From assembly GCA_937122485.1 (NCBI GenBank), contig CAKZKH010000236.1, positions 1 through 48,898 of the forward strand: a stretch of DNA of 48,898 nt. The letters are read 5' to 3'. The DNA is from an uncultured bacterium. GTDB taxonomy: Bacteria > Bipolaricaulota > Bipolaricaulia > Bipolaricaulales > Bipolaricaulaceae. The notes beneath the pieces are model-generated. The model was given only the letters and a program-made list of their open reading frames with translations, was not told the DNA's origin and made no database searches. Position numbers and translations under genes: made by a program. How positions within the stretch are numbered: the first letter of the stretch is position 1; each line of letters starts with the position of its first letter. Positions 1 to 48,207 of the stretch are shown here, piece by piece.

Positions 1-1389
1 GTAGAGGAAGTCCGGCTTCCCCTGAAACTTTTGGGCCAAGGCGACGAGGGCCTCCTCCGTCTTGAGGGCCTGGGTGAGGATCTGAGGCGCCCGGGCCAGC
101 TCTTGGCTGGCCGCGGCGAACCCCTCATCGCTGAGGTTGCCTCGGATTCGGGCCAACCGGAGTCCCAGGAGCATCAGGGCGGCCACCTGGGCGGTGAAGG
201 TCTTGGTGGCGGCCACGGCGATCTCCAAGCCGGCGCGGGTGTAGATCACCCCTTGGGCTTCCCGCTCCAGGGCAGAGCCCAACTTGTTGACCACGCCCAG
301 CACCCGCGATCCCCGGGCCTTGGCCTCCCGCACAGCTCCCAACGTGTCCGCGGTTTCCCCGGATTGGGACACGGCCACCACCAGCGTGCGCGCGTTCAGG
401 GCTGCGCCCTTGAACTGGAACTCGCTGGCGATCTCCGCCGTCACGGGAACCTGGAGGAGAGGTTCCCACAAGTACTCGGCGGCCACTGCGGCGTGGTAGG
501 AGGTGCCGCAGGCCACAAGGTAAATGTGGTCCACCGACCGAAGCTCTTGGGCCAGGCGGCCGTCCCATTCCGCGTGGAGCTGGTCGCGGAGGGTATCGGC
601 CACCGCTTGGGGCTGCTCATGAATCTCCTTGTGCATGTAGTGGCGGTGGCCCCCCTTCTGGGCCACCGCGTCGTCCCAGGGCACGCGGACGAACTGGGGT
701 TCCTTGGGGTGGCCGTCGCGGTTCCACACCTCCACCTGCCCAGGCCTGACCCGCACCGTGTCCCCCTCGTCCAGGAAGAGGAAGTCGCGGGTGTAGGGCA
801 GCAACGCGGGAGCATCGGAGGCGAGGAACCCCGCTCCGGGAAGGAGGCCCACAACCAGGGGGCTTCCCCAGCGGGCGGCCACGATCTCGTCAGGGTGATC
901 GGCGTGGACCACGGCGATCGCTAGGGCCCCCTGGGCGCGGGCAAAGGCCTTCTGGACCGCGGAAAGGAGGTCCCCCTTGTAGTACTCCTCCACCAGGTGC
1001 ACCAGCACTTCGGTGTCCGTGTCGGACACAAAGCGGTGCCCCGAGGCCCGGAGGGCGTCCTTGAGCTCCCGGTGGTTCTCGATGATGCCGTTGTGGACGA
1101 GGGCCAGCTTGCCCGAGCAGTCGGTGTGGGGGTGCGCGTTCTCCACTGTGGGTAGACCGTGGGTGGCCCATCGGGTGTGGCCAATCCCCAACGCTGCGGG
1201 GCAAGGGTTCGCGGCCAGGGCTTCCTCCAGCTCCCGGATCTTCCCGACCTTTCGGGCGAGCACGATCTGTCCCCCGTGCACGAGGGCCACACCCGCCGAA
1301 TCGTAGCCCCGGTACTCCAACCGGCGCAGGCCCTCCAGAAGGATCTTTTGCGCTGGACTGTTGCCCACATACCCCACGATTCCGCACAT
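1..1389 (-). CDS. glmS: Glutamine-fructose-6-phosphate aminotransferase, partial (C-terminus beyond window)
   Basis: Makes glucosamine-6-phosphate from fructose-6-phosphate and glutamine, the first step towards UDP-GlcNAc for the cell wall. The protein begins MCGIVGYVGN, so Cys2 becomes the N-terminal nucleophile of the class II glutaminase domain (about residues 1-220). Next come the first sugar-isomerase (SIS) domain, with VACGTSYHAA and VSQSGETADT, and the AATKTFTAQ stretch leading towards the second SIS domain. 463 codons are present of a usual ~600; the rest lies off the left edge. The start is fixed by the obligatory Cys2. A TATAAT hexamer lies 9 bases upstream and there is no ribosome binding site, so the mRNA is probably leaderless. 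Divergent from the gene at 1486. Identity is very secure. Confidence 0.97.
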   Translation of the reverse strand, partial: MCGIVGYVGNSPAQKILLEGLRRLEYRGYDSAGVALVHGGQIVLARKVGKIRELEEALAANPCPAALGIGHTRWATHGLPTVENAHPHTDCSGKLALVHNGIIENHRELKDALRASGHRFVSDTDTEVLVHLVEEYYKGDLLSAVQKAFARAQGALAIAVVHADHPDEIVAARWGSPLVVGLLPGAGFLASDAPALLPYTRDFLFLDEGDTVRVRPGQVEVWNRDGHPKEPQFVRVPWDDAVAQKGGHRHYMHKEIHEQPQAVADTLRDQLHAEWDGRLAQELRSVDHIYLVACGTSYHAAVAAEYLWEPLLQVPVTAEIASEFQFKGAALNARTLVVAVSQSGETADTLGAVREAKARGSRVLGVVNKLGSALEREAQGVIYTRAGLEIAVAATKTFTAQVAALMLLGLRLARIRGNLSDEGFAAASQELARAPQILTQALKTEEALVALAQKFQGKPDFLY

Positions 1390-1398
1390 GGCAAGGCG

Positions 1399-1404
1399 AT
1401 TATA
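1399..1404 (-). promoter_or_regulatory. -10 element of glmS (leaderless type)
   Basis: TATAAT on the minus strand followed by 9 bases and the glmS ATG. No clear -35. Transcription would start at or next to the start codon. Confidence 0.6.
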
Positions 1405-1448
1405 GCCCGAATGTAACGTAGCCCATGGTCGGCCGAGGGGCCGATGGC

Positions 1449-1454
1449 TATAAT
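1449..1454 (+). promoter_or_regulatory. -10 element for the bifunctional-nuclease gene
   Basis: Perfect TATAAT, 31 bases before the ATG at 1486. Unlike its divergent neighbour glmS, this gene keeps a leader with a Shine-Dalgarno sequence (GAGGAGGGG at 1471-1479). Confidence 0.6.
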
Positions 1455-1485
1455 GGGCGGCGAGGTGCGCGAGGAGGGGATTCAC

Positions 1486-2007
1486 ATGAAGGAAGCTGAG
1501 GTCAGGGCGCTGCTTCTTGATCCCACGACCAAGACGCCGGTCTTGCTCTTGCAGGATCGGAATTCCACCAAGGCTATGCCCATCTGGATTGGGGAACCTG
1601 AGGCGATGTCCATTGCCTTAGCCCTGCAGGGACACGCCTTCCCGCGCCCGCTATCCCACGACCTGATGAAGCACTTGCTCACCACCTTGGGGGGGTGGTT
1701 GGAGCGGGTGGTGATCACCAGCGTGCAGGAGAACACCTACTTTGCCACCCTGGTGGTCCGGGACGCCACCGGGGCCCTCCAGGACATCGACGCTCGCCCG
1801 TCGGACGCTGTGGCCCTGGCCCTGCGCACCCAAGCCCCCATCTACGTGGCGGACGAGGTGTTCGATAAAGTGGCCATCGATTCCCCTCTTGCCGAGGAAG
1901 AGCAGTTCGAGAAGTTCGTCGAACAGGGACTGCGCCTTACGGAGTTCCGGCGGCGCCTATCCGATCCCGAAGGAAAAGCCAGCGGTCCGGAAGAGGATCA
2001 AGCGTAA
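1486..2007 (+). CDS. Bifunctional nuclease family (DUF151) protein
   Basis: 173 residues. Matches the DUF151 / bifunctional nuclease domain by pattern: PIWIGEPEAMSIALALQG near residues 25-45, RPLSHDLMKHLLTTLGG after it, and DARPSDAVALALR near residue 105. The C-terminus is charged and low in complexity. Members of this family in plants and some bacteria have been reported as DNases/RNases; in most bacteria the role is unknown. An ATG at 1444 would lie upstream of and inside the -10 hexamer, so I place the start at 1486, behind a good Shine-Dalgarno site. Its 3' end overlaps the 3' end of the convergent gene 1937-2629 by 71 bases. Family assignment is firm, function is not. Confidence 0.88.
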   Translation: MKEAEVRALLLDPTTKTPVLLLQDRNSTKAMPIWIGEPEAMSIALALQGHAFPRPLSHDLMKHLLTTLGGWLERVVITSVQENTYFATLVVRDATGALQDIDARPSDAVALALRTQAPIYVADEVFDKVAIDSPLAEEEQFEKFVEQGLRLTEFRRRLSDPEGKASGPEEDQA

Positions 2008-2629: not shown

Positions 2630-2636
2630 CCCCGCA

Positions 2637-2642: not shown

Positions 2643-2702
2643 CCGGCCCCTGGTTGCCCGGGGGCCCGGGCCAGCCTAGAATGCGCGCGGGGTGATTGGC
2701 AC

Positions 2703-3884
2703 GTGCAATTGCGAGCAATCCGAGGATTGAAGGTCGAAGGTCGGCGGGTCCTTTTCCGGGCCGATCTCAATGTGCCCCTTGACGGCCAGCGGGTGGCCGA
2801 GGATGGCCGCATCCGGGCTGTGCTCCCCACCCTCCAGTGGCTGCTGGATCGGGGGGCCAAGGTGGCGGTTTGCTCCCACCTGGGTCGCCCCGATGGACGC
2901 GTCGTGGAAGAGCTCCGCTTGGGCCCTGTGGGCGTGCGGTTGGGGGAGCTCCTTGGGCGCCCCGTTCCCCGCCTGGGGGTTTGTGTGGGGCGGGAGGTCC
3001 AAGAAGCGGTAAGCCGCCTCGAACCTGGATCGGTAATCCTCCTGGAGAACGTGCGGTTCCACCCCGAAGAGGAGGAGAACGACCCGGAGTTCGCCCGGAG
3101 GCTGGCCGCGCCGTTCGACCTGTTTGTGAACGACGCATTTGCCACGGCCCATCGGGCTCACGCCTCCACCGTGGGGGTGACCCGCTACTTGCCCTCCTAC
3201 GCGGGGTTCCTCATGGAACGGGAGGTGGAGGTGCTGGGAGGGCTTCTGGAGAATCCCCGCCGCCCGTTTTACGTCCTGGTGGGGGGCAAGAAGGCCAAGG
3301 ACAAGCTGGGGGTGCTCACCGATCTCCTCCCCCATGTGGACGGGTTCCTGGTGGGTGGGGGCGTGGCGTTCACCTTCCTCCTTGCCCGTGGCGATTCCAT
3401 CGGTAGGTCCGTGGCTGATGCAGATTTGGTGGATACGTTGAAAGATCTGATGGGTAAGGCCGACGCCCAGGGCAAGAAGATCCATCTCCCGGTGGATGTG
3501 GTGGCGGCTCCGGAAGTTTCGGCTCAAGCCGAGAGCAAGACTGTTCCGGCCGACAAGATCCCTCCGCAGTGGATGGGGTTGGACATCGGACCGGAGACGG
3601 CCGCGGCCTACGCCCGCATCGTCAAGGAGGCCGGTACGGTTGTGTGGACGGGCCCCATGGGGGCGTTTGAGTTTGCGCCGTTCGCCCGGGGGACGAAGGC
3701 CATGGCCGAGGCCCTGGTCTCCTCCAAGGCGTTTACGGTGGTGGGAGGGGGGGAGACGGGGGAGGCCGTGGAGAAAATGGGCCTTGGGGAGAAGTTCGGG
3801 TACATCTCCACCGGGGGCGGTGCTACCTTGGATTTCTTGCGGGGGAAGTCCATGCCGGCCCTGGAGCCCCTTCGGGCGAGCTAA
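2703..3884 (+). CDS. pgk: Phosphoglycerate kinase
   Basis: Glycolysis/gluconeogenesis: transfers phosphate between 1,3-bisphosphoglycerate and ADP. 393 residues, the normal bacterial length. Clear motifs in order: FRADLNVPLD (about 20), CSHLGRPDG, ENVRFHPEEEEND, NDAFATAHRAHAS, GGKKAKDKLGVL, GPMGAFEF and VVGGGETGEAV near the C-terminus (nucleotide site). The start is a GTG giving VQLRAIRGLKVEGRRV; GGGGTGA at 2690-2696 is a weak ribosome site and TAGAAT at 2677-2682 a possible -10. It ends 46 bases before tRNA-Gly, which has its own promoter. No gap gene adjoins it. Confidence 0.97.
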   Translation: MQLRAIRGLKVEGRRVLFRADLNVPLDGQRVAEDGRIRAVLPTLQWLLDRGAKVAVCSHLGRPDGRVVEELRLGPVGVRLGELLGRPVPRLGVCVGREVQEAVSRLEPGSVILLENVRFHPEEEENDPEFARRLAAPFDLFVNDAFATAHRAHASTVGVTRYLPSYAGFLMEREVEVLGGLLENPRRPFYVLVGGKKAKDKLGVLTDLLPHVDGFLVGGGVAFTFLLARGDSIGRSVADADLVDTLKDLMGKADAQGKKIHLPVDVVAAPEVSAQAESKTVPADKIPPQWMGLDIGPETAAAYARIVKEAGTVVWTGPMGAFEFAPFARGTKAMAEALVSSKAFTVVGGGETGEAVEKMGLGEKFGYISTGGGATLDFLRGKSMPALEPLRAS

Positions 3885-3892
3885 CCGGCGAG

Positions 3893-3921
3893 TTGACGAT
3901 GCCCCGGCAGGGCAGTATCCT
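3893..3921 (+). promoter_or_regulatory. Promoter of tRNA-Gly
   Basis: TTGACG (3893-3898), 17-base spacer, TATCCT (3916-3921). The mature tRNA 5' end is 9 bases after the -10, which helps calibrate the -10 to +1 distance in this genome. Confidence 0.75.
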
Positions 3922-3930
3922 CCTTCACGC

Positions 3931-4006
3931 GCGGGCGTAGCTCATTTGGTAGAGCGTCAGCTTCCCAAGCTGAAGGCCGCGGGTTCGACTCCCGTCGCCC
4001 GCTCCA
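3931..4006 (+). tRNA. tRNA-Gly (anticodon CCC)
   Basis: Full cloverleaf: acceptor GCGGGCG/CGCCCGC, D-arm GTAGCTCATTTGGTAGAGC, anticodon loop TTCCCAA on a TCAGC/GCTGA stem, T-arm GCGGGTTCGACTCCCGT, discriminator T and an encoded CCA. Confidence 0.95.
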
Positions 4007-5097: not shown

Positions 5098-6096
5098 TCA
5101 CGCGATGTACTGGTCGTAGAGGCTCTGGGCCCGCTCGGGTGAGTTGACGCCGTGCACGAGGGCGCGCCCGTCCGGAAAGACCACGAAGCGGGCCTCCCCG
5201 GCCTGGAAAAAGAGGAGCCCGTGGGACAAGCGCACCTTCCCCAGCGGGGCCAGCCGCTGGGCCAAACCGGCAAGGTCCAGCTCCCCAGGGCGGCGCGGCC
5301 TTACTTGCACCACATCTCCGCATAGCAGGGCCGTACCAGACTGTTGCCTAAGAAACTCGAAATCCCTCTGCCCGCAGCTTGGGCAGCTCGGCGAGCGCTG
5401 CATCTCCACCACCTGGGTCCGCTTGGTCCACAGGTCGAGGTAGAACAGTTCGCCGGGGCGCAGGTCCGGGCTTGCGGTCAAAGTCTGGATCGCAGTGGCG
5501 GCCTGGACGGCAGCCAGTGCCTTGGGTACCGGTCCCAAAATCCCCGCTTGGGCACAGGTGGGCAGCGCCCCGGGGGCCGGAGGATGGGGAAAAACACAGC
5601 GCAGGCATGGCCCCTTCTCCGGAACGATGGGCATGGTCATTCCGTAGGTGGCCAGCACGGCCGTGTAGACGTAAGGGATACGGTGCTTCACGCAGGCGTC
5701 GTTGAGGAGGTAGCGGGTCTCCATGTTGTCCAGGCCGTCCACCACCGCGTCCACCTTGGGCACCCATTCTTCGGCGAGTTCCCCGTCGAAGTGGGCGACG
5801 AGGGGCTCCACCACGGCGTCGGGGGCGATGGCCCGGAGCTTGTCGGCCGCGGCCCAGGCCTTGGGCTGACCCAATTCGGCGGGGGTAAACAAGCTGACCC
5901 GGTGGAGGTTGTGCACTTCCACAATGTCCCGGTCGACCAGGATCAAGTGGCCCACGCCGGCGCGGAGGAGGGCCTCGGCGGTGTGGGTGCCCAACGCTCC
6001 ACAGCCCACCACAAGCACCCGGCCCTTCCCCAGCCGAGCCTGCCCCTCGGGGCCCACCTCGGGAAGGACATGGTGACGGGCGAACCTATGCTCCAC
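5098..6096 (-). CDS. ThiF/MoeB/HesA-family adenylyltransferase
   Basis: 332 residues. The E1-like fold begins VLVVGCGALGTHTAEALLRAGVG (nucleotide-binding Rossmann motif), then LVDRDIVEVHNLHR, PKAWAAADKLRAIAP and DGLDNMETRYLLND. A zinc site is suggested by CLRC (about residue 170) and CPSCG (about residue 250). Such enzymes adenylate the C-terminal glycine of a ubiquitin-like sulfur carrier (ThiS or MoaD) for thiamine or molybdopterin synthesis. About 85 residues after the zinc pair form a small extra domain as in many ThiF homologues. No carrier-protein gene lies beside it, so thiamine versus molybdopterin cannot be decided. The start is GTG 6096. Convergent with the TPR gene (9-base gap). 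Confidence 0.88.
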   Translation of the reverse strand: MEHRFARHHVLPEVGPEGQARLGKGRVLVVGCGALGTHTAEALLRAGVGHLILVDRDIVEVHNLHRVSLFTPAELGQPKAWAAADKLRAIAPDAVVEPLVAHFDGELAEEWVPKVDAVVDGLDNMETRYLLNDACVKHRIPYVYTAVLATYGMTMPIVPEKGPCLRCVFPHPPAPGALPTCAQAGILGPVPKALAAVQAATAIQTLTASPDLRPGELFYLDLWTKRTQVVEMQRSPSCPSCGQRDFEFLRQQSGTALLCGDVVQVRPRRPGELDLAGLAQRLAPLGKVRLSHGLLFFQAGEARFVVFPDGRALVHGVNSPERAQSLYDQYIA

Positions 6097-10130: not shown

Positions 10131-10158
10131 TTGACCGGGCGGCGGGCCTGGGTACGCT
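10131..10158 (+). promoter_or_regulatory. Promoter of the upp cassette
   Basis: TTGACC (10131-10136), 16-base spacer, TACGCT (10153-10158), 11 bases, then ATG 10170. No ribosome binding site, so leaderless or nearly so. Confidence 0.65.
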
Positions 10159-10169
10159 AACCGCCCAGC

Positions 10170-10793
10170 ATGAGCAAGTTTGTTCTTGTGGAACACCCGC
10201 TCATCCAGGCCAAGCTCACCAAGCTGCGCGATCGCCGCACGGATCGGCTGCAGTTCCGCCAGATTCTGGAGGAGCTCACCGCGCTCATGGTCTACGAAAT
10301 CACACGGGACTTCCCGGTGGTGGGTGTGGAAGTGGAGACGCCCCTGGAGCGGGCCTCCGGCGTGGAGCTGGCGCGGCCCGTGGTGTTGGTGCCCATCCTC
10401 CGGGCCGGGATTGTCATGTTGGATGGGGTGTTGGCCCTTGTTCCCAGCGCCCGGGTGGGGCACATCGGCATCTACCGGGACAGGGCCACGTTGAAACCCG
10501 TGGAGTACTTCGTCAAGCTTCCCAACAACCTGGGGGAGGCGTTGACGATCGTGGTGGACCCGATGCTGGCCACAGGGGGGTCGGCCGCTCTGGCGGTGGC
10601 TTTGACCAAAGAGAAGGGAGCGCGCGACGTGCGGTTCCTTTGTCTGGTGGCGGCTCCGGAGGGGTTGCGGACCCTGCATGCGGCCCATCCAGACGTGCCC
10701 GTGTACGCGGCCGCCCTGGATCGCCAGCTGGACGAGCACGGGTACATCCGACCTGGGCTGGGGGACGCGGGGGATCGGTTGTTTGGAACCTGA
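10170..10793 (+). CDS. upp: Uracil phosphoribosyltransferase
   Basis: Pyrimidine salvage: uracil + PRPP gives UMP. 207 residues, the usual length. Family pieces: VEHPLIQAKLTKLRDRRT at the N-terminus, RPVVLVPILRAGIVMLDGV, GHIGIYRD, the PRPP loop VVDPMLATGGSA and PEGLRTLHAAHPDVPVY near the C-terminus, ending GDAGDRLFGT as UPRTases do. First gene of a four-gene run (upp, SDR, isomerase, MFS) with gaps of 9, 4 and -4 bases. The promoter lies only a few bases beyond the IS remnant. Confidence 0.97.
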   Translation: MSKFVLVEHPLIQAKLTKLRDRRTDRLQFRQILEELTALMVYEITRDFPVVGVEVETPLERASGVELARPVVLVPILRAGIVMLDGVLALVPSARVGHIGIYRDRATLKPVEYFVKLPNNLGEALTIVVDPMLATGGSAALAVALTKEKGARDVRFLCLVAAPEGLRTLHAAHPDVPVYAAALDRQLDEHGYIRPGLGDAGDRLFGT

Positions 10794-14891: not shown

Positions 14892-16964
14892 TTAGTGCTG
14901 GCCTTGGGAGGAAGCAACTCGGGCCCAGACCCGGTGAGCGGCCTCCACCACGGCCTCGGTCGTCATGCCCAGTTGGGCTAAGACCACCGGCCCAGGGGCA
15001 CTGGCGCCGAACCGGTCGATGCCTACAACCTCTCCCGCCGGGCCCACGAACTTGTGCCAGCCCAAGGTGCGCCCGGCCTCCACCGCCACCCGGGCCTGTA
15101 CCCCTGGAGGCAACACGCTCGCCCGATAGCTCTCCGGCTGCTCACCAAACAGTTCCCAGCTGGGCATGGCCACCACCCGCACCTTTCGGCCTTCTTGCAC
15201 CAGTTTTTTCCCGGCAGCCAAGGCCACGTGCACTTCAGAACCCGTCCCAAGGAGGATGATCTCAGGGGTCTCCGGGTGGGAGTTCCACAGCACGTAGGCG
15301 CCCTTGTGGAGCTCGGTTGGGGAGGCCAGGGTGGAGCGGTCGAGCACAGGGAGGTCCTGGCGGGTGAGGACAAGGGCGGTGGGGCCATTTCGGGCCAGGG
15401 CGGTGATCCACGCCTCGCGGGTCTCGTTGGCGTCGGAAGGGCGAAGGACCACCAGGCCGGGGATGGCGCGGAGGCTGACGAGGTGCTCCACGGGCTGGTG
15501 GGTGGGGCCGTCTTCCCCCACGCCCACCGAGTCGTGGGTGAACACGAAAACCACGGGCGTTTCGCTTAGGGCCGCCAGGCGGATGGGCGGCCGCATGTAG
15601 TCGGAAAACACAAGGAACGTGCCCACAAAGGGGCGGAGGCCCCCGTGGCGGGCCATCCCCACGGCAATGGCCCCCATGGCGTGCTCCCGCACCCCAAAGT
15701 GCAGGTTTCGTCCCCCATAATTCCAACCCCCGCCCACCGCCCCCTGCGCCTTGCCTTGTTCCCCAGGGGCTTGGAAATCGCCCTTCCCCTTGAGCCAGGT
15801 AAGGCACGAAGGGTTCAGGTCCGCAGACCCCCCGATCAGTTCGGGAACGCGCTCGCCCAGGGCCTGAAGCACCGTTTCCGAGGCCTTGCGGGTGGACAGG
15901 CCCTTTGGACTGGGAGGAAACTCAGGTAGGCCTTTGTTCCAAGCCTCGGGCAGAGTGCCTTGGATTCGACGCTGGAACTCGCTCCCCAAGTCCGGATGAA
16001 CCTGGGCGTAGCGGTCCACAAGCTTTTGCCAGGCTGCTTCTTTCCGTTTTCCTTCTGCGCGGGCATTCATGTGGGCGTGGACCTCTTCGGGGACGAAAAA
16101 CGGGGGATGTTCGGGCCAACCGAGCGCCCGCTTCGCCCCCTTGAGCTCCTCTTGCCCCAGGGGTGAACCGTGGGCGTGGAAAGTTCCCGCCTTGGTGGGC
16201 GCGCCGTAACCGATCACCGTGCGCACACAGATGAGCGAGGGTTTGTCCCTTTCGGCTTTGGCCAGAAAAAGGGCCTGGTCGATGGAGGCAAGGTCGTTCC
16301 CGTCAGGTACTTCCATCACTTGCCAGCCCATGGCTTCAAACCGGCGGCGTACGTCCTCGGTGAAGCACAGTTCCGTGGACCCGGCAAGCGAAACTCCGTT
16401 GTGATCGTAGAGCACGATGAGCTTGCCCAAGCGGAGGTGGCCCGCCAGGGCGCAGGCTTCGCCGGCTACCCCCTCCATAAGGTCCCCGTCGCTGGCGAGA
16501 ACAAAGGTGAAGTGGTCGACGATGGTGAACCCGGGGCGGTTGAACCCATGGGCCAGGTGAGCTTCGGCCATGGCCATACCCACGGCATTGGCGATTCCTT
16601 GGCCCAGGGGGCCTGTGGTGACCTCTACCCCCGGGGTCAGCCCGGCTTCGGGGTGCCCGGGGGTGCGGCTGCCCCACTGCCGGAAGTTCTCCAGTTCCAC
16701 CAAAGGCAGGTCGTAGCCAGTGAGGTGGAGGAGGGCGTAAAGAAGGGCCGAACCGTGGCCGGCGGAAAGAACAAAGCGGTCGCGGTCGGGCCAAGAGGGG
16801 TTTTGGGGGTTGTGCTTGAGGTGTTTTTTCCACAGCACGTAGGCCATGGGGGCCGCCCCCAAAGGCAGCCCGGGGTGCCCGGACTGGGCTTTCTCCACCA
16901 TGTCCGCAGCCAAAAACCGCACGGCGTTCACGCATCGAGCGTCCAACTCCGTCCACATCGCCAT
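14892..16964 (-). CDS. tkt: Transketolase
   Basis: Thiamine-diphosphate enzyme of the pentose phosphate pathway, moving two-carbon units between sugar phosphates. 690 residues, full length. Visible: [18 protein letters not shown] (about 30), [19 protein letters not shown], the ThDP motif [13 protein letters not shown] ending in LYDHNGVS, the pyrimidine-domain stretch [19 protein letters not shown] with its catalytic Glu/His, and the C-terminal domain with [10 protein letters not shown]. The start MAMWTELD at 16964 is chosen because TATAAT lies 7 bases upstream; no ribosome site. First gene of the minus-strand run to rpmF; divergent from purB. Confidence 0.97.
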
Positions 16965-16971
16965 GGGCTGG

Positions 16972-16977
16972 ATTATA
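16972..16977 (-). promoter_or_regulatory. -10 element of tkt (leaderless type)
   Basis: TATAAT on the minus strand, then 7 bases and ATG 16964. No ribosome site. Confidence 0.65.
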
Positions 16978-16996: not shown

Positions 16997-17025
16997 TTGG
17001 CAAGAACGCGGACGTCCTCTATCCT
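16997..17025 (+). promoter_or_regulatory. Promoter of purB (leaderless type)
   Basis: TTGGCA (16997-17002), 17-base spacer, TATCCT (17020-17025), 10 bases, ATG 17036. Sequence between -10 and ATG is pyrimidine-rich with no ribosome site. Confidence 0.7.
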
Positions 17026-17035
17026 TTCCCCGACC

Positions 17036-18352
17036 ATGTGGGAAAGGTACGCCCTCTCACCGATGAAGGACCTCTGGACCCTGCAGCGCCAGTACGAGCT
17101 GTGGCTGCGGGTGGAACTGGCCGCTTTGGAGGCCCTGGAAGACCTGAACAAGGTTCCCCTCGGTACAGCCCACCGAATTCGCAGCCAGGTCCAAATTCGG
17201 CCCCAGCGCATTCTGGAACTGGAGCGGGAAGTGGGCCATGACCTCGTGGCTTTCCTGTGGACGCTGGAGGAACAGATCGGACCGGAAGGCCGCTGGCTCC
17301 ACTACGGCCTCACCTCCTCCGATGTCAAAGACACCGCCCTAGCCCTCGTTCTCCTCGAAGCCTTGGACCTCCTTGTGCTCAAGCTGGAGAAGCTCCAGGC
17401 AACCCTCAAAGGATTGGCGTGGCGGCACAGAACGACGGTGATGATGGGGCGAACCCACGGGCAGTGGGCCGAGCCCACCACCTTCGGCCTCAAACTCTTG
17501 GGTTGGTTTGAAGAGGGCCGGCGCGTGGAGGAGCGGTTCCGGCGGGCCCGGGAGACCATCGCCGTGGGCAAGCTCTCCGGTGCGGTGGGCACCCACGCCT
17601 TTTTCCCTCCAGAGGCCGAAGCCCGCGCTCTAGGCCAACTTGGACTGCAGCCGTGCCCGGTGACCACCCAGGTCGTTTCCCGGGACCGTCACGCCGAAGT
17701 CCTGTTTGCCCTGGTTTCGTGCGCCTCCTGGATTGAGAAGATCGCCCTGGAGGTGCGGCACTTGTCCAGGTCCGAGGTGCGGGAAGTGGAAGAGGGCCGA
17801 CCGGAGGGCTCCTCAGCCATGCCCCACAAGCGCAACCCCATTCTTTCGGAGCGGCTTTGTGGACTGAGCCGGGTGGTGCGCGCGAGCCTGGCTCCGGCCT
17901 GGGAAAACAACGTCCTCTGGCATGAGCGGGACATGTCGCACTCCTCGGTGGAGCGCGTGCTTTTTCCCCAAACGTTCATCTTGGTCGATTACATGCTGGA
18001 CCGGGCCCGGCAGCTTGTGGGCGAGCTTCGGGTTTTTCCCGCGCGCATGGAGGCGCGGCTGAAGGAGGCCAAGGGTCTTCCCTTCTCGGAGGGGCTGTTG
18101 TTGGCCTTGGTGCAGGCCGGGATGGGCCGGCGGGCCGCCCACGAGAAGGTCGCGGAACTTACCCACCGGGCCCAAGCCGAACAGCGGGACCTTGCAGAGC
18201 TGGTCTTGGAAGATCCCGTGATCCGAAGCTACCTGTCCCCGGCCAGGGTGCGGTCCATCTTCAGCCTGGAACAACTCTCTACCCAAGCGGAGGCCGCTTT
18301 CACCCGGGTTTTCGGGGAGAAACAAGGCTATAATGGGGACGATCATGCTTAG
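17036..18352 (+). CDS. purB: Adenylosuccinate lyase
   Basis: Purine synthesis: splits SAICAR and adenylosuccinate, releasing fumarate. 438 residues. The N-terminus MWERYALSPMKDLWTLQRQYELWLRVE matches the family's 'M..RY....M..LW' start, which fixes the start codon. Further motifs are HYGLTSSDVKDTALAL (substrate site), MMGRTHGQWAEPTTFGLK (catalytic His) and the fumarase/aspartase signature GSSAMPHKRNP (about 275) with its flexible catalytic serine loop. purA lies 3 kb on, beyond ileS, so both enzymes of the IMP-to-AMP route are close. Confidence 0.97.
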   Translation: MWERYALSPMKDLWTLQRQYELWLRVELAALEALEDLNKVPLGTAHRIRSQVQIRPQRILELEREVGHDLVAFLWTLEEQIGPEGRWLHYGLTSSDVKDTALALVLLEALDLLVLKLEKLQATLKGLAWRHRTTVMMGRTHGQWAEPTTFGLKLLGWFEEGRRVEERFRRARETIAVGKLSGAVGTHAFFPPEAEARALGQLGLQPCPVTTQVVSRDRHAEVLFALVSCASWIEKIALEVRHLSRSEVREVEEGRPEGSSAMPHKRNPILSERLCGLSRVVRASLAPAWENNVLWHERDMSHSSVERVLFPQTFILVDYMLDRARQLVGELRVFPARMEARLKEAKGLPFSEGLLLALVQAGMGRRAAHEKVAELTHRAQAEQRDLAELVLEDPVIRSYLSPARVRSIFSLEQLSTQAEAAFTRVFGEKQGYNGDDHA

Positions 18353-22866: not shown

Positions 22867-22891
22867 TGCCCGAGTCGCCAAGGAGAACAAC

Positions 22892-27537: not shown

Positions 27538-27544
27538 CCCCAGC

Positions 27545-27551: not shown

Positions 27552-27559
27552 TTTGCCCC

Positions 27560-29956
27560 ATGGCAAGGGAACTTCTACCTGCGGAGCTGCGCCGCACTTG
27601 TCCTCCCGAAGTCTTCACCTTTCGCACGACCGATGAGCTTGAACCCCTGGCAGGGATCATCGGTCAGGATCGGGCCGTGGAGGCCCTCCAGGTGGGTCTG
27701 GCGCTTCGCCAACCCGCCCATCGGTACAACGTGTTCGTCACCGGGGAACCGGGGTTGGGGAAGACTTCGGCGGTGGCCCACTTCCTCCGGGAGATTTCCT
27801 CCACCTTGCCCACCCCTCCCGACATCTGCTACGTCCACAACTTTCAGGTTCCCCATGCCCCGCGGTACTTGCTTGTTCCGCCTGGGCGGGGCCGGGAGCT
27901 CCGCCTGGACATGGAGCGGTGCGTGGAGTTCTTGGCCCGGGAGCTGCCCAAAATCTTGGAGAGCGAGGAATTCAAGGCCCGGGCCAAGCGGGAACGAGAG
28001 AAGTTCGGGCAGCGCCGGGAGGAGGTTTTCCGGCAGCTGGAGCAGCGCGCTGCCGCCCTGGGGTTCGCCATTCAACGAACCCCCGTGGGGGTGAACACGA
28101 TTCCCCTCAAGCCGGATGGGACCCCCTTTTCCCAGGACGAGTACCAGGCCCTTTCCCCCGAGGAGCAGGCCGGGATCCTCCACCGCCAAGAGGAGCTTCA
28201 GGAGAGCGTGCGGGAGACTTTCCAAAAGCTGGGGGAGCTCGAGGAGTCCTGGCAGGAGATCCAGCGCGACATCACCAAGCGGGCGGTCCAGTTCATGATC
28301 GCCCCCCGATTTGCCCAGCTGCGAGCCAAGTACGCAGGTTTGGACCGGGTGCAGACGTTTCTCAAGGAAGTGGAGAACGATGTGGTGGAGAATGCCCACC
28401 AGCTTCAGGGTGGCGAGAAGAAACCCCCACTCCCCCTTCCCTTCCCGTTTCCTGAGGCCCCGGACCGCTTTGCTCGCTACAGGGTGAACGTGATCGTGGA
28501 CCGCACCGGTCAGCAAGGGGCTCCGGTGGTGGTGGAAGAAAATGCCACGTACACCAACTTGTTCGGGACGATGGAGCGGAAGGTGCAGTTCGGGGTGGTC
28601 ACCACGGACTTCACCCAGATCCGAGCAGGTTCCCTTCACCGGGCGAACGGGGGGTTCCTGGTTCTTTCCGCCTCAAACCTTTTGCGGTTTGGCTTGAGCT
28701 GGGAAGCGCTCAAGATCGCCCTCAAGGGTGGGGAGATCCGCATCGAGGATCCGGCCCAGATGTTGGGCTTGGCCTCCACCGAGGGGCTGCGCCCGGAACC
28801 GGTGCCCTTGGACGTCAAGGTGATCATCATCGGTTCACCGTACCTCTACTACCTCCTCCACTACTACGACGACGACTTTCGCAAGCTCTTTGCCATTCGA
28901 GCGGACTTCGATCGGGAGATGCCCTGGACCGAGGACACGGTCCAGGCCCTTGCCCGGTTCATTCGAGCCCGGCGGGACATCAACCCCTCTCTGCTCCCCT
29001 ACAGCCCGGATGGGGTGGCGCGGGTGGTGGAGTGGGCTGCGGAGATGGCCGGCGACCAGAAAAAGCTCACCACCCACTTTGGTCAGCTGGCGTCTTTGGT
29101 GGACGAGGCCAGTTTCTGGGCCCGGGAGGAATGGGCCTCCCTCGTCACCGCTCAGCACGTCCGAAAGGCCATCCGCAAAGGGCGGCGACGACATGCCCTC
29201 CTTGCCGAACGGATCCGGGAATGGATCGCCCGGGGCAAGATCGTGGTCAACGTCCACGGGACGGCGGTGGGGCAGGTCAACGGTTTGGCCGTCATCGATC
29301 TTGGAGACTTCGCCTTTGGCAAGCCCACGCGCATCACGGCCAACGTGTTCACCGGAAAGTCCGGGGTGGTGGACATCGAGCGGGAGGCCGAGCTGGGAGG
29401 CAAGCTCCACACCAAGGGCGTCCTCATCCTCAAGGGCTACGTGGGCGAGCGGTTCGGAGGGCGGCAACCGGTGTCCTTCTCGGCCAGCTTGGCGTTGGAG
29501 CAGACGTACACCGGGGTGGAGGGGGATTCGGCCTCGGCGGCCGAGCTCTACGCCCTCCTTTCTGCGCTGTCCGGCGTGCCCTTCAAACAAGGGGTGGCCG
29601 TCACCGGGGCGATCGATCAAAAGGGGCGCCTCCAGCCCATCGGGGGCGTGAACGAGAAAGTGGAAGGGCACTTCCTGGTGTGCCAGGAGCTGGGCCTTAC
29701 CGGGGACCAGGGCGTGATCATCCCCAGCGGCAACGTGGATGACCTCATGCTCCCTGAGGAGGTGGTGGAGGCCGTCGCGGCAGGCAAGTTCCACCTCTGG
29801 GCCTGCGACCATGTGGAACAAGGCCTGTCCGTCCTCACCGATGTCCCCATAGGGGAACGGGATTCAGAAGGGCACTACCCCCCTGAGTCCCTGTTTGGTA
29901 GGGTGGAGCGGAGGCTGGAAGAGATCCGGTCTGTACTGGAAAAAGACGAGGGCTAG
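27560..29956 (+). CDS. Lon-family ATP-dependent protease (S16, AAA_32 type)
   Basis: 798 residues. N-terminal AAA region with Walker A GEPGLGKTSA (about 70-79), a long charged coiled-coil-like insert (about 130-290), a second AAA part (VDRTGQQGAPVVVEENAT, HRANGGFLVLSA, KVIIIGSPYLYYLL) and a C-terminal S16 protease domain. The catalytic serine is in EGDSASAAELYALLSALSGV and the lysine in NEKVEGHF. This is the 'Lon-like / YcbZ' group, not classical LonA: there is no N-terminal substrate domain. Role: turnover of damaged proteins. ATG 27560 follows TATGAT by 9 bases; no ribosome site. Ends tail to tail with the SHMT-GcvT gene (4-base overlap). Confidence 0.92.
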   Translation: MARELLPAELRRTCPPEVFTFRTTDELEPLAGIIGQDRAVEALQVGLALRQPAHRYNVFVTGEPGLGKTSAVAHFLREISSTLPTPPDICYVHNFQVPHAPRYLLVPPGRGRELRLDMERCVEFLARELPKILESEEFKARAKREREKFGQRREEVFRQLEQRAAALGFAIQRTPVGVNTIPLKPDGTPFSQDEYQALSPEEQAGILHRQEELQESVRETFQKLGELEESWQEIQRDITKRAVQFMIAPRFAQLRAKYAGLDRVQTFLKEVENDVVENAHQLQGGEKKPPLPLPFPFPEAPDRFARYRVNVIVDRTGQQGAPVVVEENATYTNLFGTMERKVQFGVVTTDFTQIRAGSLHRANGGFLVLSASNLLRFGLSWEALKIALKGGEIRIEDPAQMLGLASTEGLRPEPVPLDVKVIIIGSPYLYYLLHYYDDDFRKLFAIRADFDREMPWTEDTVQALARFIRARRDINPSLLPYSPDGVARVVEWAAEMAGDQKKLTTHFGQLASLVDEASFWAREEWASLVTAQHVRKAIRKGRRRHALLAERIREWIARGKIVVNVHGTAVGQVNGLAVIDLGDFAFGKPTRITANVFTGKSGVVDIEREAELGGKLHTKGVLILKGYVGERFGGRQPVSFSASLALEQTYTGVEGDSASAAELYALLSALSGVPFKQGVAVTGAIDQKGRLQPIGGVNEKVEGHFLVCQELGLTGDQGVIIPSGNVDDLMLPEEVVEAVAAGKFHLWACDHVEQGLSVLTDVPIGERDSEGHYPPESLFGRVERRLEEIRSVLEKDEG

Positions 29957-38541: not shown

Positions 38542-38628
38542 TGGTGCCGAGGGTGGGATTTGAACCCACACAGGCCGAAGCCCACTGCCCCCTCAAGACA
38601 GCGCGTCTGCCAATTCCGCCACCTCGGC
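38542..38628 (-). tRNA. tRNA-Leu (anticodon GAG)
   Basis: Class II cloverleaf with acceptor GCCGAGG/CCTCGGC, anticodon loop TTGAGGG (GAG) on CTGTC/GGCAG, a long variable arm, T-arm GTGGGTTCAAATCCCAC and encoded ACCA. The next gene's start codon begins after one base. Confidence 0.95.
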
Positions 38629-38637
38629 GCGGTGGGG

Positions 38638-38666
38638 ATGGTATCGGAGGCTTCTCAGCCGATCAA
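38638..38666 (-). promoter_or_regulatory. Promoter of tRNA-Leu-plsX
   Basis: TTGATC (38666-38661), 17-base spacer, TACCAT (38643-38638); the tRNA begins 9 bases after the -10. Its -35 is 3 bp from the -35 of the divergent holA promoter. Confidence 0.65.
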
Positions 38667-38669: not shown

Positions 38670-38697
38670 TTGTCACCCAAGCGGCCGAAGGTACCCT
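38670..38697 (+). promoter_or_regulatory. Promoter of holA (leaderless type)
   Basis: TTGTCA (38670-38675), 16-base spacer, TACCCT (38692-38697), 9 bases, ATG 38707. No ribosome site. Confidence 0.6.
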
Positions 38698-38706
38698 ACC
38701 AGGCCG

Positions 38707-39585
38707 ATGCTGGGCGTGTACTGGGGGGATCCCCTGCTTTGCGAACGGGCCCTGGCGAAGAGGCTCGCGGCCTTTGGCCCCGGGGAAAGACGGGTGTTGT
38801 GGGGCGATGAACCCTGCCTGGGCCCCCTCGTGGAGGAGCTCCGCAGCCTGGACCTCTTCTCCGCCCAGCGGGTGATCGTGGTACGGCGCGCCGATCCCCT
38901 CAAGGATGAACCTGTTCTTGTCCGCACGCTGGGTCGAGGACTTCCCCCCGGGCTTGGGGTGTTCTTCCTCGGGCAGGACTTGCGTGGGCCGTTGGCCCGC
39001 CAGGCCCAGGAGGCCTTGGGATTCCCTACGCCCAAGGGCGGGGAACTCAAGGCCTTGGCTCGGATCTTGCTCGAGGAGGCGGGGGTCCAGGGTCCTGATC
39101 ACCTCGTCGATTTGCTTGTCGAGGCCTGCGGTGGGGAAACCCTGAGGTTGGCTCAGGAAGTGGGGAAACTTGCAGTCTGGGGGGGAAGAAGACTCTCGCT
39201 GGATCAGGCTCAACGGCTCCTTGTGTTCTCTCAGCCCCTGGTTTATCCCTACCTTGACGCGCTGGGGCGGGGGCAGACGGGACCGGCCCTGAACGTGTTG
39301 CGCGAGCTCCTGCGCAGGGGCTGGTCAGCGCCGGCTTTGTTCTTCATGGTGGTGCGTCACATTCGGGACCTCCTCATGGTTCTGGGGGCCCGGGCGGAAG
39401 GAAGGCCGGCTCCTGGGCCGGACTGGCTTGTGCGCCGGCGGTTGGACCAGGCCCAGCGCTGGGGAGAAGCGCGGTTGGTGGAGCTGCTTGTTCTGGCTCA
39501 GGAGCTTGATGTGAAAGTGAAAACGGGCCGCCTCTCCGCCGAGGCGGCCCTCCAGCTCCTTACGCTTGCGTGGGCACCGGCCTGA
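38707..39585 (+). CDS. holA: DNA polymerase III delta subunit
   Basis: 292 residues. Clamp-loader subunit that opens the beta sliding clamp. The early part shows MLGVYWGDPLLCERALAKRL, then LRSLDLFSAQRVIVVRRADPLKD, the family's 'LFS..R.V.V...' stretch, and LRLAQEVGKLAVWGGRR. The C-terminal collar domain has PLVYPYLDALGRGQTGPALNVLRELLRRGWSAPALFFMVVRHIRDLLM and the KTGRLSAEAALQLLTL end, a good HolA pattern. Slightly shorter than the E. coli protein. Its last 26 bases overlap the 3' end of secD on the other strand. Confidence 0.85.
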   Translation: MLGVYWGDPLLCERALAKRLAAFGPGERRVLWGDEPCLGPLVEELRSLDLFSAQRVIVVRRADPLKDEPVLVRTLGRGLPPGLGVFFLGQDLRGPLARQAQEALGFPTPKGGELKALARILLEEAGVQGPDHLVDLLVEACGGETLRLAQEVGKLAVWGGRRLSLDQAQRLLVFSQPLVYPYLDALGRGQTGPALNVLRELLRRGWSAPALFFMVVRHIRDLLMVLGARAEGRPAPGPDWLVRRRLDQAQRWGEARLVELLVLAQELDVKVKTGRLSAEAALQLLTLAWAPA

Positions 39586-41708: not shown

Positions 41709-43021
41709 GCCAATCGGTGGATGAAGGCGGTGGCCAAGCCCAAGAACAGGCCGATGCCAATCAGGTCACCGATCGTTGTGGCGATGGGCCCGGACACCAT
41801 GGCCGGATCAATGCCCACACGCTTGAAGAAGAAGGGGAGGGTGCCCCCTGTGAGGCAGGCGCCCACCGTGGTCCCGGCCAGGGCCAGCCCGGCCACCAAC
41901 CCGAAGAATGGGCGGTGCCACATCACGGCTGCGATCAGGCCGATCTCTGCCCCGAGGGCCAGACCCGCCAACAGCCCCACCCGGACCTCTTTCCACACCA
42001 CCCAGGGCAGGTTGCGCCAGTCCACTAGGCCCAAGGCCATCCCGCGAATGGCCACGCTCAGGGCCTGAGATGCCGCGTTCCCGCTCATGTCGGCGATCAG
42101 GGGCATGAGCGAGGCCACGAAGGCGATTTGGGCAATCGTCCCCTGGAACCGGCTGACCAACGTGGCCACCGTCATGTTCAGCAGCACCAGGACCATGAGC
42201 CAGGGCAGGCGCTTCCGCACCGAGGTCTGGGGCGGATCCAGCGGTTGATCTTCTCCGGCCGGAATACCTCCCAGCCGCAGCACGTCTTCGGTGGTCTCCT
42301 GACGGATGACGTCGAGGACGTCGTCGATGGTGACGATGCCCAAAAGGGCTCCGGCATCGTCCAGGACCGGAAGAGCCATGTAGTTGTACTTGTCGAACAT
42401 TCGGGCCACTTCTTCCACGTCCATGGCCACCGGGAGGTAGACGAATTCGGTCTGCATGAGGTTGCGGATCGGGGCCTCGGGGCGGGCCAGCACCAGCTCC
42501 CGCAGGGACAGGACGCCCAGGAGTTTGCGGTCCTTATCCACCACGTAGGCGTAGTAGATCGTCTCGGCCTCTTCGGCCACGCGGCGCAGGTAATCGATGG
42601 CCTCTTGGACAGTCATGTCTCCGGGGAGGGTCACCACCTCGGTGGACATGAGCCCCCCGGCGGTGTCGGGGGGGTAAACCATCAGCTCCCGCAGGGTCTT
42701 GGCCTGCCGGGTCTCCAGGCGAGCCAGAATGTCCTGGACGGTGTGGGCGGGGAGCTCGGCCAGGAGGTCTACGGCATCGTCGGGCTCCATGTGGGAGAGG
42801 ATCTTCACCGCATCGTCCCTGTTGAGTTCAGCGAACAGGCGAGCCGCTTCCTCAGGGTCCATCTCCCCCAGGGGCGCCGCGGCCGCTCGCCTTTTGTACA
42901 GGCGGCGGAGAAGCTCGACTGCCTCCTCTTCCTCCAAAGCCAGAAGGATCTCGGCGACGTCCGCAGGGTGACGCCTCAACAGCTCGTGAACGTCCAGGGT
43001 CGGGGTTTCGTCCTCAGGCAC
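41705..43021 (-). CDS. mgtE: Magnesium transporter MgtE
   Basis: 438 residues. N-terminal helical domain (HPADVAEILLALEEEEAVELLRRL, LNRDDAVKILSHMEPDDAVDLL), two CBS domains with MSTEVVTLPGDMTVQEAI and YVVDKDRKLLGVLSLREL, and the following FVYLPVAMDVEEVA block. Five membrane helices follow, with PLIADMSGNAASQA and DPAMVSGPIATTIGDLIGIG; the last Asp lines the ion pore in Thermus MgtE. Cytoplasmic magnesium binding to the CBS/N domain closes the channel. GTG start with TATAGT 8 bases upstream, no ribosome site. Confidence 0.95.
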   Translation of the reverse strand: MPEDETPTLDVHELLRRHPADVAEILLALEEEEAVELLRRLYKRRAAAAPLGEMDPEEAARLFAELNRDDAVKILSHMEPDDAVDLLAELPAHTVQDILARLETRQAKTLRELMVYPPDTAGGLMSTEVVTLPGDMTVQEAIDYLRRVAEEAETIYYAYVVDKDRKLLGVLSLRELVLARPEAPIRNLMQTEFVYLPVAMDVEEVARMFDKYNYMALPVLDDAGALLGIVTIDDVLDVIRQETTEDVLRLGGIPAGEDQPLDPPQTSVRKRLPWLMVLVLLNMTVATLVSRFQGTIAQIAFVASLMPLIADMSGNAASQALSVAIRGMALGLVDWRNLPWVVWKEVRVGLLAGLALGAEIGLIAAVMWHRPFFGLVAGLALAGTTVGACLTGGTLPFFFKRVGIDPAMVSGPIATTIGDLIGIGLFLGLATAFIHRLA

Positions 43022-43029
43022 AGTGGCCC

Positions 43030-43035
43030 ACTATA
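43030..43035 (-). promoter_or_regulatory. -10 element of mgtE (leaderless type)
   Basis: TATAGT on the minus strand, 8 bases, GTG 43021. A weak TGGGCA 17 bases further upstream could be the -35. Confidence 0.6.
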
Positions 43036-43062: not shown

Positions 43063-43524
43063 TCACAGTGCGGCCCGAACCCCCAGGGAAATGAGAAGGA
43101 CCACAACGCCGGCCAACCCCACGCCCAGGGCGATGGCCGGTCCGGCCCGGCGCGGTTCCAGCCCCAGCAGGGCGGCGAGCAAGGCCCCTGTCCACGCTCC
43201 CGTCCCGGGAAGGGGAACGCCCACGAACAGGACCAGAGCCCAGCTGCCAAGCCGGTCGAACCTGGGGCTGTGGCGCCGCCGTTGCCAATCAAGGTACCGC
43301 CCGGCCCAGATCCCCAAGGGTTTGGGGAGGCGGGGAGCAAGAGGAACGAGCACCCGAAACATCCAGAGAAGAAGGGGAACAGGCAACAAGTTCCCGGCGA
43401 GGGCCAAGAAGAAGGTCACGGCCGGAGACAGGCCCAAGGCCAGGCCGAGGGGGATCGCGGCCCGCAGCTCAGCCACAGGCGAAATGGCCAAAATCAGAAC
43501 TTTGAGCTCAGCCGCCCCCTCCAC
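43063..43524 (-). CDS. Small multidrug export family membrane protein (PF06695-like)
   Basis: 153 residues, about four to five helices. Pattern of the Sm_multidrug_ex family: ISPVAELRAAIPLGLALGLSP at the N-terminus, NLLPVPLLLWMFR, then FDRLGSWALVLFVGVPLPGTGAWTGALLAALLGLEPRRA, a family hallmark with the paired P-L-P-G-T-G-A-W-T-G motif. Despite the name, transport of drugs is not well established. GTG 43524, with TAGAAT 6 bases upstream; no ribosome site. Divergent from cysS. Confidence 0.85.
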   Translation of the reverse strand: MEGAAELKVLILAISPVAELRAAIPLGLALGLSPAVTFFLALAGNLLPVPLLLWMFRVLVPLAPRLPKPLGIWAGRYLDWQRRRHSPRFDRLGSWALVLFVGVPLPGTGAWTGALLAALLGLEPRRAGPAIALGVGLAGVVVLLISLGVRAAL

Positions 43525-43530
43525 GGCCGC

Positions 43531-43536
43531 ATTCTA
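43531..43536 (-). promoter_or_regulatory. -10 element of the small multidrug export gene (leaderless type)
   Basis: TAGAAT on the minus strand, 6 bases, GTG 43524. Confidence 0.5.
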
Positions 43537-46481: not shown

Positions 46482-46809
46482 CTTCCTCCCGGAAGGCATC
46501 AGGGATGTGCACCAGGCCGTTGGGGCTCACGGCCACCACGTCGAACCGCACAGGGACAGGAGGTTTGCCGCTGAGGAAGGCCTGAGCCGAGCGCCAGAGC
46601 TTGGCCCGCTTGGCCGGGGTGATCGTCTCTGCAGGCGATCCGAATTCCGAGGAAGTACGGGCCCGCACCTCCACGAACACCAGGGTGTCCCCGTCTTTGC
46701 CGATGATGTCGATTTCTCCCCCCTGCCAGCGCCAATTGCGGGCCACGATCTTGAGCCCTTGGGAACGGAGCAACTCGCAAGCCTCGTTTTCCGCGTCCTT
46801 TCCCCGCAT
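46441..46809 (-). CDS. YraN family protein (UPF0102, endonuclease-like fold)
   Basis: 122 residues. The PD-(D/E)xK-like core is visible: GKDAENEACELLRSQGLKIVARNWRWQGGEIDIIGKDGDTLVFVEVRARTSSEFG, with Glu, Asp and E-x-R in place. Function in the cell is unknown; it is often next to ComM or rnhB. The start at ATG 46809 follows TATCAT by 10 bases; TTG 46818 is a longer alternative. Runs into comM by overlap, so the two are co-translated. Confidence 0.9.
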   Translation of the reverse strand: MRGKDAENEACELLRSQGLKIVARNWRWQGGEIDIIGKDGDTLVFVEVRARTSSEFGSPAETITPAKRAKLWRSAQAFLSGKPPVPVRFDVVAVSPNGLVHIPDAFREEDVRPGVERNPVRD

Positions 46810-46819
46810 GGCCTCCAAA

Positions 46820-46825
46820 ATGATA
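46820..46825 (-). promoter_or_regulatory. -10 element of yraN-comM (near-leaderless)
   Basis: TATCAT on the minus strand, 10 bases, ATG 46809. GGAGG lies within those 10 bases but only 2 bases from the ATG. Confidence 0.4.
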
Positions 46826-46883
46826 GCCTCTCACGCCTGGGAGTTGCGATGATCGTTTCCAACTGCATCGGCGCATTTCCTGG

Positions 46884-46911
46884 TTGGTATGTGGCCACCA
46901 GCCCTTATACT
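46884..46911 (+). promoter_or_regulatory. Promoter of the amidohydrolase gene (leaderless type)
   Basis: TTGGTA (46884-46889), 16-base spacer, TATACT (46906-46911), 9 bases, GTG 46921. No ribosome site. Confidence 0.65.
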
Positions 46912-46920
46912 GTTGGTTTT

Positions 46921-48207
46921 GTGAGGTTGTTGATTCGGGGAGCGGCGGTGATGCAGCGGCCGGAGGCCGAGGTGCTTCCCAAGGCCGACGTGATCATTGA
47001 GGGCCGAAGGTTTGCGGCCGTCCTCCCCGGCGGGGGAGCCCAAGGAGCCTTCGACCGCGTGATCGAGGGCGAAGGCCGTCTCCTTTTCCCGGGCCTGGTC
47101 AACGCCCACACCCACCTGGCCATGACCCTATTCCGCGGTCTGGCCGCCGACCTCCCTCTTTCCCGCTGGCTCAACGAGGAAGTCTGGCCCCGCGAGCGCA
47201 ACCTCACGGGAGAAATCGTGTACTGGTTCTCTCTCTTGGGCCTGGTGGAGATGATCCGCTCCGGCACCACGGCCTTTGCCGACATGTACTTTTTCATGGA
47301 GGACGTGGCCCGGGCGGTGGAGAAAGCCGGGGTGCGCGCGCTTCTTGCTCACGGGGTGATTGCCCCCACCCCGGACCGGGTGGAGCCCGAGCTCAACAAG
47401 GCCGAAAGTTTTGTGCGGGAGTGGGAGGGCAAGGCCGAGGGCCGCGTCCGCACCGCCCTTTCTCCCCACGCCCCCTACACTTGCGGGCCCGAGGTATGGA
47501 AGCGCGCCGTAGCTCTGGCTCGTGAGCTCAAGGTCCCCATCCACACGCATCTGGCCGAGACCGCGGACGAAGTAGAGCAGGTTCGGCGGGAGAGGGGCCG
47601 AAGCCCGGCCGAGTGGCTGGAATCCTTGGGTGTGTTCGCGGTCCCTGTGATCGCGGCCCACTGCGTGCACGTGACCGACAAGGATATGGAGATCCTGGCG
47701 GCCCACAACGCCACCGCGGTGCACTGCCCGACCTCCAACCTCCGCCTGGCCTGCGGCATTGCTCCGGTGGCCGAGATGCTGCGCCAAGGGGTCAACGTGG
47801 CCTTGGGCACGGATGGCCCCGGCTCTTCTGGTCGCCTCAACATGATCGAGGAGATGCGGCTGGCGGCGGTGCTGGGAAAGCAGAAAGCTGGGGATCCCCA
47901 GGCCATTTCAGCCCAGGAGGCCCTGGCCTTGGCCACCTGGCGGGGAGCGGTGGCGCTTGGTTTGGGCAAAGAACTGGGTACAATTGAGCCCGGAAAGCGG
48001 GCCGATGCGGTCTTGCTGGACCTAACCAAGCCTCATCTGCAGCCCGGCTACAGTGCGCGAGCGGATCTGGTGTATTCCGCCCAAGGAGCCGATGTGGCCA
48101 CGGTGGTGGTGGACGGCCAACCGCTGCTCCTGGAAGGAGAGCTCCAGACCGTGGATGATACCGAGGTGATCGAGCGCTGCCGGCAGTTGGCCCGCAAGTT
48201 CCAATAA
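46921..48207 (+). CDS. mtaD: Amidohydrolase of the MTA/SAH deaminase family
   Basis: 428 residues. Metal-dependent amidohydrolase: FPGLVNAHTHLAMTLFRGLAADLPLSRWL (first His pair; the 'FRG.A.DLPL..WL' run is typical of 5'-methylthioadenosine/S-adenosylhomocysteine deaminases), TALSPHAPYTCGPEVW, IHTHLAETADEVEQV, HCVHVTDKDMEIL, VHCPTSNLRLACGIAP and the Asp in LGTDGPGSSG. The C-terminus returns to the small beta domain with IEPGKRADAVLLDL. Deaminates MTA/SAH-type nucleosides to the inosyl forms; substrate choice within the family is inference. GTG 46921 follows its -10 by 9 bases. Confidence 0.88.
   Translation: MRLLIRGAAVMQRPEAEVLPKADVIIEGRRFAAVLPGGGAQGAFDRVIEGEGRLLFPGLVNAHTHLAMTLFRGLAADLPLSRWLNEEVWPRERNLTGEIVYWFSLLGLVEMIRSGTTAFADMYFFMEDVARAVEKAGVRALLAHGVIAPTPDRVEPELNKAESFVREWEGKAEGRVRTALSPHAPYTCGPEVWKRAVALARELKVPIHTHLAETADEVEQVRRERGRSPAEWLESLGVFAVPVIAAHCVHVTDKDMEILAAHNATAVHCPTSNLRLACGIAPVAEMLRQGVNVALGTDGPGSSGRLNMIEEMRLAAVLGKQKAGDPQAISAQEALALATWRGAVALGLGKELGTIEPGKRADAVLLDLTKPHLQPGYSARADLVYSAQGADVATVVVDGQPLLLEGELQTVDDTEVIERCRQLARKFQ

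Follow-up and report, generated by a model that had tools for sequence, protein, structure and literature searches.

Leaderless genes preceded by a TANNNT hexamer are established in Deinococcus-Thermus, where they account for ~30% of open reading frames (Zheng 2011, PMC3160421; Zhong 2025, PMC12340547). As defined in Zheng 2011 (PMC3160421), the motif is of sigma70 type, is located ~10-12 bp ahead of the translation start, and precedes single or operon-first genes without a Shine-Dalgarno (SD) sequence, the distal genes of operons being SD-led. In mycobacteria and other Actinobacteria, leaderless mRNAs have been shown by mapping of transcription start sites (TSSs) and by ribosome profiling (Shell 2015, PMC4633059), and mycobacterial leaderless initiation is experimentally restricted to ATG or GTG (PMC4633059). 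Thermotoga maritima has short SD leaders of 11-17 nt and no leaderless transcripts (PMC3636130). Here, we analyzed a 48,898-nt stretch of DNA (the window) from an uncultured member of the Bipolaricaulaceae, phylum Bipolaricaulota, which is the entire contig C236 (CAKZKH010000236.1) of a metagenome-assembled genome (MAG) named G000 (1.54 Mb, 246 contigs, 65% GC), and in which twelve genes have a TANNNT hexamer at a spacing of 6-11 nt from the start codon. The phosphoglycerate kinase encoded in the window is most similar to those of Candidatus Bipolaricaulota MAGs (68-74% identity), which places the organism in this phylum and, with high probability, in the Bipolaricaulaceae. It is highly probable (about 90%) that housekeeping-sigma promoters located at start codons make leaderless mRNAs in G000, as judged from sequence signals. 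The initiation mode is known (Zheng 2011; Zhong 2025), and what is new here is the phylum Bipolaricaulota; no report of leaderless genes in this phylum was found in a literature search that left most subscription journals and supplements outside its reach.

Promoter motifs in the window and across genomes

All twelve hexamers listed in a preliminary description of the window were recovered with the same sequence and spacing, eleven among in-frame starts that were screened for a TANNNT at a distance of 5-12 nt and the twelfth, before a LolA-like gene, by pattern. The product of this gene has no Pfam match, and its name is that of the earlier reader, whereas the names glmS, upp, tkt, holA, mgtE, yraN, purB, amidohydrolase, Lon-like, PLD-like, and small multidrug-export were confirmed. 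On the minus strand, the sites precede glmS (1387-1404; TATAAT at 1404-1399, 9 nt, ATG at 1389-1387), the LolA-like gene (2627-2642; TATGAT at 2642-2637, 7 nt, ATG at 2629-2627), tkt (16962-16977; TATAAT at 16977-16972, 7 nt, ATG at 16964-16962), an HKD/PLDc protein gene (27535-27551; TATCAT at 27551-27546, 8 nt, ATG at 27537-27535), mgtE (43019-43035; TATAGT at 43035-43030, 8 nt, GTG at 43021-43019), a small multidrug-export protein gene (43522-43536; TAGAAT at 43536-43531, 6 nt, GTG at 43524-43522), and yraN (46807-46825; TATCAT at 46825-46820, 10 nt, ATG at 46809-46807). On the plus strand, they precede upp (10131-10172; TTGACC, 16 bp, TACGCT at 10153-10158, 11 nt, ATG at 10170), purB (16997-17038; TTGGCA, 17 bp, TATCCT at 17020-17025, 10 nt, ATG at 17036), a LonB-like protease gene (27545-27562; TATGAT at 27545-27550, 9 nt, ATG at 27560), holA (38670-38709; TTGTCA, 16 bp, TACCCT at 38692-38697, 9 nt, ATG at 38707), and an amidohydrolase gene (46884-46923; TTGGTA, 16 bp, TATACT at 46906-46911, 9 nt, GTG at 46921). 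The -35 elements at 16-17 bp were good in upp, purB, holA, the amidohydrolase gene, and mgtE (TGGGCA), and weak at the other window sites. Within the interval -18 to -5, an SD core was present in 0/12 sites, in agreement with the earlier statement that most lack a ribosome site, and the GGAGG within the 10-nt spacer of yraN is indeed misplaced, being too close to the ATG. The yraN site is ambiguous, and an alternative amidohydrolase start at 46849 scores about equal to GTG 46921; these two are the weakest of the twelve.

Start codons for the counts below were set by a gene caller based on codon usage only, so that upstream motifs had no influence on the choice of start. The class tested was TANNNT at a spacer of 6-11 nt before the first genes of transcription units (TUs), with dinucleotide shuffles as the control. 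Genome-wide figures for G000 are from 428 kb of its 1.54 Mb. The caller was also run on 200 kb of G022, with the codon model of G000 as its seed, on 600 kb of G001, a member of the family whose genome is a single contig, and on ten additional Bipolaricaulota loci, stretches from eight genomes of other Bipolaricaulota families, and loci of other phyla. In the window, 7/31 coding-only starts had the motif (binomial P = 2e-5). The check proposed in the preliminary description, a comparison with shuffled upstream regions, gave a clear excess in G000, with 44/181 TU-first genes (24%) against 5.2 +/- 2.1 in shuffles, and the further sets behaved likewise: 57/349 in G001 (9.6 shuffled), 12/82 in G022 (2.2), and 39/122 in the ten loci (4.9). 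An SD core preceded 43% of TU-first and 64% of operon-internal genes of G000. When a model of two motifs was fitted with free weights, the leaderless class again took the form TA..T with a spacer of 6-11 and the second class the form AGGAGG; 37% of G000 TU-first genes fell into the leaderless class, although the mixture weights were equally high on shuffled data because the motif adapts. We therefore relied on the learned motif, the -35 test, and the start-codon test rather than on the mixture weights. Overall, the predicted leaderless layout would cover some 24-37% of the G000 genes that head a TU.

Start regions are commonly enriched in A/T, and a smaller excess was also found for operon-internal genes of G000 (13/170, 8%; 3.2 shuffled), so TANNNT might be a chance occurrence or a by-product of A/T enrichment or of upstream TAA/TAG stop codons. 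This explanation is extremely unlikely and is refuted for the class, although individual weak sites may be explained in this way. The counts are far above those of dinucleotide shuffles, an upstream stop codon supplies the hexamer in 0/44 G000 sites, and the spacer limits are sharp, with almost no sites at 0-5 or 12-14 nt. In addition, TTG, which was not used in the selection, preceded the -10 at a distance of 16-18 bp in 18/59, 23/77, 8/16, and 17/57 sites of four sets, compared with ~0-1 at each other spacing. The complete arrangement TTG-N16-18-TANNNT lay 6-11 nt before 57 of 734 TU-first genes (~0.8 in shuffles) and before 3/514 operon-internal genes; before TU-first genes, it occurred 2 times at 12-14 nt and 27 times at 15-23 nt. 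By these signals, TANNNT qualifies as a predicted sigma70-type promoter.

All features of the Zheng 2011 class were thus found here, namely the excess over shuffles, the -35 spacing, the restriction to TU-first genes (24% vs 8%), and the absence of an SD. As in Deinococcus-Thermus, TANNNT lies about 6-11 nt before the start, occurs alongside SD genes, and reaches a comparable share: with the same pipeline, plasmid stretches gave 10/49 (1.7 shuffled) for Thermus and 6/26 (1.2) for Deinococcus, i.e., 20-23%. The earlier interpretation as leaderless mRNAs is supported; the extent, which it called notable beside the Deinococcus and Mycobacterium precedents, equals that of Deinococcus-Thermus and does not exceed it. 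The two systems differ in phylum and in the -35, since between about one third and one half of the sites here have a detectable TTG at 16-18 bp, whereas in Deinococcus the motif reportedly functions with no -35; the modal spacer is 6-7 there and 6-9 here. No clear excess was detected in other phyla with the same pipeline (24/353, 18.5 shuffled, at 50% GC or above; 36/243, 34.0 shuffled, below 50%), or in E. coli (4/64, 6.3 shuffled). In other families of the Bipolaricaulota, the -35-supported test gave 14/361 at 6-11 nt (0.8 shuffled) and, in relation to this, more at 15-26 nt (29), compared with 44/734 at 6-11 nt and 31 at 15-26 nt in the four Bipolaricaulaceae sets. Because of these -35-supported counts per family, the predicted trait is strongest in Bipolaricaulaceae and is weak, not absent, in other families of the phylum.

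Start codons, orthologues, and alternative readings

The start codons of the putative leaderless class were ATG or GTG only, as TTG was used in 0/233 of these genes vs 34/589 SD genes (P = 1.6e-5). This usage matches the mycobacterial rule (PMC4633059), and the resemblance to mycobacteria extends to the absence of an SD and the mixture with SD-led genes, all deduced here from sequence.

It might be argued that the promoters are real and that the true starts lie downstream, giving short SD-led leaders instead of leaderless mRNAs. Genes of that kind do occur: in rplM, as in pgk and tkt of relatives, an SD separates the start from a -10 located about 15-27 nt away. For the present class, however, such an arrangement is very unlikely. 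In class II glutamine amidotransferases, Cys2 must become the N-terminal nucleophile, which fixes the start of glmS, and its relatives have GGCTATAAT-N8/9-ATGTGYGGNAT in 7/7 cases. In 14/14 genomes, purB has a -35 (mostly TTGGC), TATCCT or TATGCT, and 6-10 nt to an in-frame start directly before the conserved RYAL. Homology of the Lon-like protease begins at query residue 1-5 in other genomes of the family; for Lon-like, upp, and purB alike, most genomes of the family show homology from about residue 1 onward, with no SD intervening. The layout is also visible for the LolA-like gene in ten relatives (spacers about 5-7; 11/11 orthologues in all) and, in G001, for upp (spacer 10) and holA (spacer 6); the leaderless status of orthologues was associated between G000 and G001 (P = 0.014).

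Alternative promoters are common among bacteria, and the near promoters could therefore be minor, with most mRNA issuing from distant promoters and carrying leaders. We regard this as improbable to a similar degree: no result here favors it, most sites lack an SD, so that a leadered mRNA would have no ribosome site, and the conservation of the -10 and its spacing across genomes implies function.

Leaderless mRNAs from promoters at the start codon would arise as follows. RNA polymerase would recognize the weak TTG -35 and the TANNNT -10, both seen as sequence signals, and initiate about 7-9 nt downstream of the -10, at the A or G of ATG/GTG. The mRNA would have a leader of 0-4 nt without SD, and the ribosome and initiator tRNA would bind the 5'-terminal AUG or GUG directly, as suggested by work in other bacteria. 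Downstream operon genes and the remaining first genes would rely on SD and the intact anti-SD. Several points weigh against this reading. The TSS positions are deduced from promoter spacing, and with spacers of 9-11, 1-4 nt would precede the start codon, barring a shift of the TSS. For any single gene, a leadered transcript may also issue from another promoter farther away, and some single leaderless calls are wrong (bifunctional nuclease GTG 1465; pgk in relatives).

The tkt gene provides a candidate for a change of state. In most relatives within the family, the same box lies about 18-27 nt before the start with an SD between, whereas G000 retains TATAAT without the SD leader, and its ATG follows after 7 nt. 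This suggests that the leader of tkt was lost in the lineage of G000. Additionally, tkt and purB are divergently arranged in several genomes of the family, with the leaderless layout of purB in 14/14 and that of tkt in G000 only.

Leaderless initiation has been argued to be ancient, on evidence largely from archaea, Actinobacteria, and Deinococcus-Thermus. With usage at the level of Deinococcus, strongest in one family, and with per-gene switches such as tkt, this further deep-branching phylum would provide a comparative system for inherited versus repeatedly gained leaderless initiation. Moreover, gene callers that use SD only will misplace many starts in Bipolaricaulota.

Shine-Dalgarno genes and short leaders

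The 3' end of the 16S rRNA contains the anti-SD CCTCCTTT, its tail includes GGATCACCTCCTTTCT, and a homologue of S1 is present; therefore, SD initiation is predicted to be intact. SD-led first genes frequently have very short leaders, including pgk, rplM, and tkt in relatives. In the window, rplM (22861-22894, plus strand) has TATAAT at 22861-22866, AAGGAG, and GTG at 22892, with 25 nt from the -10 to the start. The corresponding region of pgk (2677-2705, plus strand) has TAGAAT at 2677-2682, GGTGA at 2691-2695, complementary to UCACC in the 16S tail, and GTG at 2703. In the window and in loci L064-L073, TAGAAT or TAAAAT of pgk is followed ~8 nt on by GGTGA near the expected mRNA 5' end and then by the start, placing the SD at the very 5' end. 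The call of pgk as leaderless was rejected, as GGTGA is an SD and the GTG within it only resembles a start codon.

These minimal SD leaders, estimated at roughly 8-19 nt, and the bimodal layout resemble T. maritima (PMC3636130). Unlike in T. maritima, the shortest class here would be leaderless, which does not fit the absence of leaderless transcripts in that species.

The preliminary description had cited the spacing of two tRNA genes as support. Both 5' ends do lie 9 nt past a -10, namely that of tRNA-Gly (3916-4006, plus strand) past TATCCT (3916-3921) and that of tRNA-Leu (38542-38643, minus strand) past TACCAT (38643-38638), but tRNA 5' ends are not TSSs, and the spacing serves as a consistency check only. 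Among the tRNAs of G000, G001, and G022, TANNNT was found 7-11 nt before the mature 5' end in 18/40 (mode 9), with implied leaders of ~0-4 nt.

A tentative and rather doubtful extension is that Bipolaricaulaceae might minimize nearly all transcript 5' ends, with mRNAs either leaderless or carrying the shortest leader that holds an SD, a depleted zone between the two, leaders of ~0-4 nt on tRNAs at the head of transcripts, and switching of genes between the states by small indels (tkt). If true, this minimal 5'-end architecture would be a clade-wide promoter-start layout not described before, and the question of an ancestral origin of leaderless initiation would become testable in a deep-branching phylum.

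Divergent promoters and single candidates

The HKD/PLDc and Lon-like genes are divergent, and their -10 boxes on opposite strands overlap by 5 bp in a near-palindromic TATGATA, with start codons 22 bp apart. This is the sole case among the divergent leaderless pairs examined and was seen in one genome only. The pair resembles the bidirectional symmetric promoters of E. coli and other prokaryotes (PMC12825309) in that one pseudo-palindromic -10 serves divergent genes. Unlike in those promoters, both products would be leaderless, with the starts at the short distance of 22 bp.

GTG 1465 of a bifunctional nuclease gene, proposed as leaderless by the motif model, was rejected, as its orthologues are SD-led and GAGGAGGGG precedes an ATG near 1487. 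RNase P RNA class A was not found in the whole of G000, and rnpA matches were identified on two contigs; the absence probably reflects a MAG gap or a divergent RNA.

For a ThiF-family gene (window 5101-6096), the start at 6057 is a model artefact. Its orthologues point to GTG 6096 as the probable start, preceded by AACAAT, a box that does not match TANNNT. The orthologues start 6-10 nt after AAAAT or AACAAT boxes, and this gene is probably leaderless as well, with a -10 outside the TANNNT pattern.

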